Part shown: positions 16,989-36,482 of the stretch, in pieces
Numbering within the stretch: the first letter of the stretch is position 1
Layout: each line of letters begins with the position of its first letter
Assembly (NCBI GenBank): GCA_022824805.1
Contig: JAJDZE010000200.1
Coordinates: 1 to 64,000 of the forward strand
Length of the DNA: 64,000 nucleotides
Direction: 5' to 3'
From: Acidimicrobiia bacterium
GTDB lineage: Bacteria; Actinomycetota; Acidimicrobiia; Acidimicrobiales; Poriferisodalaceae
Made by a program: the position numbers and the translations under genes
Notes under the pieces: generated by a model
The model's database searches: none
Told to the model about the DNA's origin: nothing
The model's input: only the letters and a program-made list of their open reading frames with translations

Positions 16989-17062
16989 GAAGGTGTGCTC
17001 TCCGTCTCGAAACCGGCCCCGCAGGGTACCGTGCGGCCTGCGATGCCCCACGTGCCCCCGAG

Positions 17063-17145
17063 GAGGCTGAGCCGAACGGCGAAGCCGTGGCCCGGGCGGC
17101 CCGTGAGCCCAATCGCATAAGCAAGGGGAACAAGAGCGGGAAACA

Positions 17146-17149
<4 letters not shown>
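17063..17149 (+). repeat. Dispersed repeat copy 1, ending on the lepA start codon
   Basis: GAGGCTGAGCCGAACGGCGAAGCCGTGGCCCGGGCGGCCCGTGAGC...GAACAAGAGCGGGAAACAATGG; aligns to 34737-34809 (40/46 and 19/22 identical by hand). Confidence 0.75.
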
Positions 17150-18942
<1,793 letters not shown>

Positions 18943-33569: not shown

Positions 33570-36482
33570 ATGGCGATGACCGAGGAGCAGCGGGTGCGAG
33601 GCGATGAACCCAGGCGCCGGCCTGCTGGCGCGCCGCTGCGCCTGCAACGGCATTTCACGGCTGCCGGCACCCATCCCTATGACACCGTGCGGTGGGAGCG
33701 CTTCGATGCGTCCATCACGAACGCAGTCGACGGGACAGTTGCGTTCGCGCAGTCCGACGTCGAATTCCCCGCCGACTGGAGCCCCACGGCGGTCAACATC
33801 GTTGCCCAGAAGTACTTCCGCGGCACCCTCGGCACGCCCGAGCGGGAGCAGTCGCTGCGCCAGGTCATCGACCGCGTTGCGGGCACCATCACCCGGTGGG
33901 CGGCCGGCGACGGCTATTTCGCATCGCCGGACGAGGAGGCGACATTCGAGGCCGAACTGGCGTGGCTGCTGGTTCACCAGCGGGTGGCGTTCAACAGCCC
34001 GGTCTGGTTCAACATCGGCGTGAAGGGTGTGCCCCAGCAGGCGTCGGCGTGCTTCATCCTCGCTGTCGACGACGAGATGGAATCGATCCTCGACTGGTAC
34101 GTCACCGAGGGCCGGATCTTCAAGGGCGGCTCGGGCGCCGGAGTGAACCTGTCGGCGCTGCGGGCGTCGTGCGAGCTGCTGTCGGGCGGCGGCACGGCGA
34201 GCGGCCCGGTCAGCTTCATGCGCGGCGCCGACGCGTCGGCGGGCACGATCCGCAGCGGCGGCAAGACCCGGCGCGCCGCCAAGATGGTGCTGCTCGACGC
34301 CGATCATCCCGATGTCGAGGCCTTCGTGTGGTGCAAGGCACGCGAAGAGCGCAAGGCACGCGCCTTGGCCGCCGCCGGTTTCGACATGGATGTCGACGGC
34401 GCCGACTCGTTCTCGGTGCAGTACCAGAATGCGAACAACTCTGTCCGGCTGTCCGACGAGTTCATGGAGGCAGTCGCGGCCGACGGCACGTGGGTGCTGC
34501 GGGCTCGCACGACCGGCGAGGTCACTGCCGTCATGCGTGCGAGAGACCTGCTCGGCCAGATCGCTCAGGCGGCCTGGGAATGCGCCGACCCTGGCGTGCA
34601 GTTCTCCACCACGATCAACAGCTGGCATACGGCGCCGGCCCACGGCGCGATCAGCGCCAGCAACCCATGCAGCGAGTACGTCCACCTCGACAACTCGGCC
34701 TGCAACCTGGCGAGCGTGAACCTGCTGCCTTTTCTGGAGGCTGAGCCGGCAGGCGAAGCCGCGGCCCGAGCGGCCGGTGAGCGCAGCGAACAAGAACGCG
34801 AAGCAATGGGAGGCGTCACTCGTCGCGACTTCGACATCGAGGGCTTCCGTCAGGCGGTGCGCATCACGTTCATCGCCCAGGACGTGCTGGTGAGCCACGC
34901 CGACTACCCGACGGAGCTGATCGGCGAGACCTCCCGGCGCTTCCGTCAGCTCGGGCTGGGCTTCACGAATCTGGGGGCGCTGCTGATGGCAGCGGGCGTT
35001 CCCTACGACGCTCCGCAGGCGAGAGCGCTCGCGGCATCGCTCACGGCGCTCATGTGCGGGGAGGCGTACGCCACCTCAGCCGACTTGGCCGAGCGGCTCG
35101 GGGCCTTCGACGGCTTCGGCGCGAATGCCGACGCGATGCGCGGCGTTCTGGGCCGCCATTGCGACTCGCTCGACAGCATCGAGGTGTGCCCAGACCCGCC
35201 AGGCGCCGGTGCGGGAATGGCGGCGCTCACCGACGATCTGCGTGCCGCCGCGCGTGATCGCTGGCGCCATGCCGTCTCGGGCTGCGAGTCGCGTGGGGTT
35301 CGCAACTCTCAGGCCACGGTGATCGCCCCCACCGGGACGATCTCGTTCATGATGGACTGCGACACCACCGGGATCGAACCCGATCTGGGCTTGGTGAAGC
35401 ACAAGAAGCTGGTGGGCGGCGGCGATCTGCGCATCGTGAACTCGACGGTGCCTGTCGCCCTCAACCGGCTCGGCTACTCGCTCTCGCAGATCGCCGACAT
35501 CGAGGCACACATCCTCGCGACGGGCCACATCGCCGGCGCGCCGCACCTGGCGGATGCTCACCTGGCGGTGTTCGCCTGCTCGATCGGCAGCGATGCCATC
35601 TCGCCGCAGGGCCACGTGGCCATGATGGCTGCCTGCCAGCCCTTCGTCTCGGGTGCAATCTCCAAGACCGTCAACCTGCCCGAGTCGGCATCCGTGGGCG
35701 ACATTGCCGACCTCATCGTCGAATCGTGGCGGCTGGGGCTCAAGGCGGTGGCGATCTATCGCGACAACTGCAAGGTGAGCCAGCCCTTGTCGGTCGGGCC
35801 GGCGTCCCCCTCCGCAGCGACATCGCCCGCGGGTGCATCGGCCCAGGGGGCCGCGGCATCCGCTGCCGCCGCGCTGGCGGGAGCGGTGGTGCCGCCGCGC
35901 AACCGGCTGCCGCGCAGCCGCCGATCGCGCACGTTCTCCTTCCGGGTCACCGACTGCCACGGCTACATGACCGTCGGCGAGTACGACGACGGCCGGCCCG
36001 GCGAGATCTTCCTCACTGTGGCGAAGCAGGGTTCCACGCTGGCCGGGATCATGGACGCATTCGCCATCTCGGTCAGCCACGGCTTGCAGTACGGGGTGCC
36101 GCTGCGCTCCTACGTGGAAGCCTTCACCAACATGCGGTTCGAGCCTGCGGGGCTCACCGACGACCCCGAGCTGCGGATCGCCACCAGCATCGTCGACTAC
36201 ATCTTCCGCCGCCTGGCGCTCGAGTACCTGTCGTTCGAAGAGCGCTCCGAGCTGGGCGTGCTGAGCGTCAACGAACGCACCGATCCGCCGCTGCCCGGGC
36301 TCGAGAGCGCAACGGTCGAGAGCGCGATCGGCGCCGAGCCTGCGCCAGACCCGCCGTCGCACCGCACTGCGGTCTACGGGTACGCCGATGCGCCGCTGTG
36401 CATGACCTGCGGCGACCGGATGGTGCGCGCCGGCTCGTGCTTCGCCTGCCGCTCCTGCGGCGCAACCAGCGGCTGCGGCTGA
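33570..36482 (+). CDS. nrdJ: Adenosylcobalamin-dependent ribonucleotide reductase
   Basis: FNSPVWFNIGVKGVPQQASACFILAVDDEMESI, SACNLASVNLLPF, APTGTISFMMDCDTTGIEPDLGLVKHKKLVGGG, C-terminal TSCPD-like region and Cys motif. Confidence 0.95.
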   Translation: MAMTEEQRVRGDEPRRRPAGAPLRLQRHFTAAGTHPYDTVRWERFDASITNAVDGTVAFAQSDVEFPADWSPTAVNIVAQKYFRGTLGTPEREQSLRQVIDRVAGTITRWAAGDGYFASPDEEATFEAELAWLLVHQRVAFNSPVWFNIGVKGVPQQASACFILAVDDEMESILDWYVTEGRIFKGGSGAGVNLSALRASCELLSGGGTASGPVSFMRGADASAGTIRSGGKTRRAAKMVLLDADHPDVEAFVWCKAREERKARALAAAGFDMDVDGADSFSVQYQNANNSVRLSDEFMEAVAADGTWVLRARTTGEVTAVMRARDLLGQIAQAAWECADPGVQFSTTINSWHTAPAHGAISASNPCSEYVHLDNSACNLASVNLLPFLEAEPAGEAAARAAGERSEQEREAMGGVTRRDFDIEGFRQAVRITFIAQDVLVSHADYPTELIGETSRRFRQLGLGFTNLGALLMAAGVPYDAPQARALAASLTALMCGEAYATSADLAERLGAFDGFGANADAMRGVLGRHCDSLDSIEVCPDPPGAGAGMAALTDDLRAAARDRWRHAVSGCESRGVRNSQATVIAPTGTISFMMDCDTTGIEPDLGLVKHKKLVGGGDLRIVNSTVPVALNRLGYSLSQIADIEAHILATGHIAGAPHLADAHLAVFACSIGSDAISPQGHVAMMAACQPFVSGAISKTVNLPESASVGDIADLIVESWRLGLKAVAIYRDNCKVSQPLSVGPASPSAATSPAGASAQGAAASAAAALAGAVVPPRNRLPRSRRSRTFSFRVTDCHGYMTVGEYDDGRPGEIFLTVAKQGSTLAGIMDAFAISVSHGLQYGVPLRSYVEAFTNMRFEPAGLTDDPELRIATSIVDYIFRRLALEYLSFEERSELGVLSVNERTDPPLPGLESATVESAIGAEPAPDPPSHRTAVYGYADAPLCMTCGDRMVRAGSCFACRSCGATSGCG
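34737..34809 (+). repeat. Dispersed repeat copy 2, in frame within nrdJ
   Basis: GAGGCTGAGCCGGCAGGCGAAGCCGCGGCCCGAGCGGCCGGTGAGC...GAACAAGAACGCGAAGCAATGG; matches 17063-17149. Confidence 0.75.

Follow-up and report, generated by a model that had tools for sequence, protein, structure and literature searches.

A segment of nrdJ, the gene for an adenosylcobalamin-dependent (class II) ribonucleotide reductase, in an Acidimicrobiia genome of the Poriferisodalaceae (G000) is very probably a non-autonomous IS5-family MITE that is spreading in the genus, with an IS5-family transposase encoded elsewhere as its mover. We describe the element as an IS5-family MITE with a structured core that is RPE-like in behaviour, RPE standing for the Rickettsia palindromic elements. 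An earlier note, made from the letters of the window alone (the whole analysed stretch of 64,000 nt), had pointed to a 73-nt block in nrdJ and read it as a short proliferating element tolerated as protein sequence. Its start at 34737, like that of the second copy at 17063, holds, and the reading itself is borne out by many copies, species-specific insertions, insert-free NrdJ orthologues and the use of a single frame; the small inverted repeats that it had picked out prove to be parts of conserved hairpins. The block is real but falls short of the full element, which measures about 111 nt, or about 125 nt with a long hairpin, and whose 3' part is decayed in nrdJ. The analogy with Rickettsia palindromic elements applies to behaviour, but IS5-family MITE is the better name because the ends and the target-site habit match those of an IS5-family IS in congeners.

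In nrdJ, GAGGCTGAGCC begins at window position 34737 and the HMM match spans 34733–34831. The 5' end is sharp, falling between CTG and GAGG, and the 3' end is decayed, its boundary being uncertain between about 34809 and 34831. The features of both window copies are collected in Table 1.

Table 1. Coordinates of the nrdJ and lepA copies and their parts, in window positions.
Feature	Position	Strand	Evidence
nrdJ, adenosylcobalamin-dependent (class II) ribonucleotide reductase, 970 aa, insertion host	33570..36482	+	NCBIfam NF005122, 1316 bits (cut-off 859); open frame
MITE copy in nrdJ, in-frame reading EAEPAGEAAARAAGERSEQEREAMGGVTRR	34737..34831	+	pattern, HMM, frame and orthologue evidence
5' terminal inverted repeat, also hairpin 1, GGCT-GA-GCC-GGCA-GGC-GA-AGCC	34737..34760	+	TIR match to IS ends; hairpin 1 covariation across the class
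Conserved core, nrdJ version GCGGCCCGAGCGGCCGG (consensus GTGGCCCGAGCGGCCCG)	34761..34777	+	hardly varies, in A1 or across Acidimicrobiia
Hairpin 2, short form GTGAGC-GCA-GCGAAC	34777..34791	+	stem varies, with covariation between copies and between genomes
Second MITE copy, with hairpin 2 in its long form, within the coding region for the LepA N terminus	17063..17186	+	HMM 17062–17186; congener comparison
Native lepA start, ATG 17043–17045, now a 25-codon frame closed in the MITE by TAA 17118–17120	17043..17120	+	sequence; G009, without the element, reads MPHVPPADGGAGTGSIRNF from the same ATG
Putative MITE-borne restart site AAGAGCGGGAAACA-ATG; ATG 17146–17148 opens the present lepA frame	17132..17148	+	sequence; congeners; same layout before full-length sucC and tpiA elsewhere

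Across the whole genome (3.69 Mb in 211 contigs, an assembly 92.5% complete), a 36-nt pattern with a tolerance of three mismatches occurs 67 times (36 + 31) against 0 + 0 for the reversed-pattern control, so the two places first noticed are not the only matches. BLAST returns at least 42 copies, and an HMM derived from the copies aligns 73, some of them partial, when applied to the retrieved loci. The window holds two copies only, those in nrdJ and lepA, and none of 100 shuffles gave two matches. The consensus, GAGGCTGAGCCGNNNGGCGAAGCCGTGGCCCGAGCGGCCCGTGAGC and GAACAAGAGCGGGAAACAACAGGTGCGACAACGAGAAGGTTCACCTATCGGCGCAGCCTC joined by a hairpin loop, is 111 nt long in its short form; the long hairpin-2 variant reaches about 125 nt, full-length copies range from 110 to 125 nt, and the copies encode no transposase gene of their own. 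Their placement is mostly intergenic, the intergenic and intragenic counts being approximate and the gene calls outside the window coming from a codon-usage script. The family is present in all ten congeners, with 19 copies within 800 kb of one of them (G004), and is missing from most other sampled genera of the family. In a comparison based on those 800 kb of a single congener, at least 15 of about 22 comparable sites are empty in G004 and two carry truncated remnants. Insertions of the element differ between species; that is, the element is mobile.

The ends of the MITE tie it to a named transposase family. GAGGCTGAGCCGATAGGCG and GAGGCTGCGCCGATAGGTG match the ends of congener IS5-family IS at 17–18 of 19 nt, that is, with one or two differences per 19 positions. 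G002 holds the partner IS and MITE copies together: its IS is 966 bp long, ends in GAGGATGAGCGGATAGGCG and GAGGCCGCGCGGATAGGCG with TAA on either side, and encodes a transposase of 279 aa that matches NF033580 (transpos_IS5_3; 137.5 bits, cut-off 110) as well as the Pfam families DUF4096 (PF13340) and DDE_Tnp_1 (PF01609), both above cut-off. The IS ends of other congeners are GAGGATGCGCCGATAGGTG, mostly adjoining TAA or TTA. The IS1031 group of IS5 uses TNA targets and leaves 3-bp repeats (PMC12016507). For the MITE, YNR precedes GAGG in 50 of 62 copies, compared with 12.8% of other GAGG sites. In related families, with the flanks of full copies read by eye, 3-bp duplications accompany 7 of 15 copies in G133 (shuffled mean 1.8, p 0.001) and 7 of 13 in G074 (shuffled mean 3.4, p 0.003). 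Many copies in G000 have decayed 3' ends and some junctions show small losses, with duplications readable at few sites. The core and interior of the MITE, looked for inside the IS, are absent from it, and the MITE is thus no simple deletion derivative.

We suggest that the GAGGCTGNGCCGATAGG terminal repeats are what the IS5-family transposase recognises, and that it inserts the MITE at YNR (TNA-like) 3-bp sites. The interior is a structured core with covarying hairpins and not an IS remnant. The copies in G000 were presumably moved by the IS5-family transposase identified in the congeners. That the element is a MITE served by some transposase other than this one is unlikely: searches for the partner IS gave nothing in G000, whose 211-contig assembly can lose IS copies, or in G074 and G170, and terminal sequences vary among families, but within the genus the ends of MITE and IS share 17–18 of 19 nt and the same TNA/YNR flanks. 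Many contigs of five congeners (G001, G003, G007, G008 and G009; L397–L419) begin or end inside the partner IS, which is therefore multi-copy and assembly-breaking. Three DUF4096 matches of more than 100 bits (L380–L382) had no MITE-like inverted repeats and were discounted as belonging to other IS5 elements.

The interior extends well beyond the genus. Relatives retain GTGGCCCGAGCGGCCCG and AAGAGCGGGAA, with the two hairpins around the core varying, and a covariance model detects the core in 31 of the 198 Acidimicrobiia genomes sampled, with up to 95 copies in one. Among 41 core sequences, aligned by fitting to the covariance model, which favours structure, 94.8% of cells pair and both sides change in 10 of 15 pairs, a level that none of 500 shuffles reaches; when the partner is slid, pairing falls to 30–46%. 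Single-copy RNA folding gives z-scores of −3.3, −2.6 and −1.8 for three well-preserved copies and values around zero or above for the others, including both window copies, and with scores so mixed the support for a core structure comes from covariation and not from energy. Some genomes that have the core gave no partner IS when searched, and in part of them the core copies lack clear terminal repeats. Copies at three loci (L319, L321 and L327, in G091 and G130) lack clear IS-like ends and are preceded by a palindrome around GCAGGTA(T/C)CCTGC; at three others (L127, L131 and L132, in G017, G012 and G019), the core copies are tandem or flanked by direct repeats of about 20–35 nt, for which 3-bp duplications do not account.

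Covariation across a whole class would also be expected of a conserved cis-acting RNA, leader or riboswitch-like, lying upstream of genes, with the nrdJ copy as a stray. Of 54 intergenic copies, 36 have a downstream gene in the same orientation, and in other genomes a start codon follows directly after AGGAGCGGGAAA in sucC and tpiA, both of which speak for such an RNA. Nevertheless, we consider it improbable, as site occupancy differs between close species and most orthologous sites do not keep the element, the downstream gene lies on the opposite strand for the remaining 18 of the 54 copies, intragenic copies exist, and the neighbouring genes are unrelated. Rfam scans at the element loci gave no element match at the gathering score or at E ≤ 1; what hits there were are unrelated or attributable to chance. 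Imperfect hairpins, high copy number and a mainly intergenic placement are shared with REP/BIME-type elements moved by a Y1 (RAYT) transposase, but this origin is highly improbable given that Y1_Tnp (PF01797) was detected in none of 22 genomes, carriers included, by a search that was positive in 5 of 14 control genomes, and that the element exceeds REP length, has terminal inverted repeats and prefers YNR.

Within NrdJ, the MITE is read as about 27 additional amino acids, in a region that includes the stretch EAEPAGEAAARAAGER. The proteins of five congeners (G004, G007, G008, G009 and G010; 92–94% identical) read NLLPFFGD...FDIEGF without the insert, the link is similarly short in other genera, and the insert is lacking from all of 19 further homologues; the closest named NrdJ relatives are Acidimicrobiia. 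The comparison of orthologues agrees with the earlier note, which had stated that other NrdJ proteins pass directly from one flank to the other. A solved NrdJ structure (chain 7b9p) has just two residues between the flanks, and in the AlphaFold model residues 392–418 have a pLDDT below 50, with neighbouring blocks at 82 and 93. We give almost no credence to the idea that the segment is a conserved functional part of this lineage's fold and no insertion at all, since, although G001 and G002 also have an insert at the same point, the segment is missing from the five closest congeners and the 19 other homologues, has only two residues in its place in the solved structure, is modelled with low confidence and recurs about 67 times in the genome.

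The inserts of G001 and G002 (L144 and L143) represent another version of the element, located at the identical nrdJ point. In trees of the nrdJ flanks, these two genomes group with the insert-free G003 and G006, apart from G000. The simpler reading of these trees, and the probable one, is that the inserts of G000 and of G001/G002 go back to two independent insertions at one spot; one old insertion followed by several losses is less likely. The NrdJ that carries the insert presumably stays active.

In one phase, the MITE consensus is an open frame of 37 codons, and its 111 nt, or 114 nt with the 3-bp duplication, is a multiple of three. All eight copies inside genes lie on the gene's strand and the intragenic copies share one reading frame; nrdJ, polA and uppP/BacA are firm cases, whereas the glycosyl-hydrolase-like C98 and the molybdopterin-binding C116 are intragenic by gene models alone, and the N-terminal cases C131, C143 and C165 may be start-site artefacts. 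The polA copy is absent from G004. The uppP/BacA gene of G000 (L114:713-1801, C111) holds two tandem in-frame copies, with a third just past the gene. Copy length varies between 110 and 125 nt, which means that some insertions do not preserve the frame. We propose that the MITE is nearly neutral to translation, being read through as an Ala/Glu/Arg-rich segment in nrdJ, polA and uppP, and in another phase imposing an early stop followed by a restart of the next gene from its SD-like AAGAGCGGGAAA and nearby start codons, as in lepA. Insertions may survive because of this near neutrality.

Elements of this kind are known; what is new, within the literature searched, is the lineage in which this one occurs, its link to a transposase, its core and its restart behaviour, and searches limited to open-access papers found the element unreported. 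Like IS5-family MITEs of the IS1031-like, TNA-targeting type, it is short and non-autonomous, with IS5-matching TIRs and a 3-bp TNA-like target, but its interior is unrelated to the IS and it has a covarying core common to a bacterial class. RPEs are palindromic elements of about 100–150 nt, dispersed and found in frame in housekeeping genes (PMC2229807, PMC10969869). The present element is like them in size, palindromes, dispersal and single-frame insertion into genes, a likeness of behaviour and not a claim of RPE membership; it differs in its phylum, in a nameable transposase family and in its mostly intergenic copies, where nearly half of the Rickettsia conorii RPEs lie in genes. ERIC and RU-1 of enterobacteria and QMITE1/2 of Coxiella are likewise intergenic MITE-like repeats with open frames able to fuse to genes, but they differ in ends, size and hosts, and a class-wide core is not described for them in the literature examined. 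Among actinobacteria, the MIRUs of mycobacteria are repeats at gene junctions with stop and start signals, and they are mostly tandem minisatellites; compared by description only, the present element differs in being dispersed and in having TIRs and a transposase partner.

Rickettsia and Wolbachia have been the main known sources of protein-coding palindromic repeats, whose means of spread has so far been unclear. In the present case, from Actinobacteria, a similar element can be linked to a family of transposases, to preferred sites and to one reading frame, and its insertions into essential genes (nrdJ, polA, uppP and lepA) can be positioned between sister species. The covarying core, found in many Acidimicrobiia and not in Rfam, offers a concrete object for asking whether mobile elements can evolve to be harmless to translation.

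The second window copy illustrates the other phase. It does lie at lepA, as the earlier note had it, but within the native lepA coding start and not upstream of the gene. In G000, G007 and G008, the first lepA codons are followed by the element; the native frame ends within it, and the open lepA frame starts again from an ATG or GTG in its 3' part. G004 has only an in-frame 3' remnant, and in G007 a 3-bp target duplication, CAA...CAA, flanks the element. The MITE carries AAGAGCGGG, and elsewhere sucC and tpiA start directly after AGGAGCGGGAAA. Judging from this layout, translation of LepA probably restarts at the element-borne start codon. More tentatively, and with the odds against it, the core may have been selected as an RNA module for translation neutrality, giving read-through in one frame and, in the others, a stop and a restart with its own SD and start codon; if true, this would account for the presence of one structured core on MITEs with different ends across Acidimicrobiia. 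Where copies go unrecognised, the gene starts and protein annotation of these genomes will be distorted, and gene starts near copies in the genus are likely to be mis-called. The start codon of a called gene lies just after AGAGCGG in about 10 of 57 copies, an upper bound in which an internal ATG of nrdJ is counted. The annotated-looking lepA ATG at 17146 sits inside the element.
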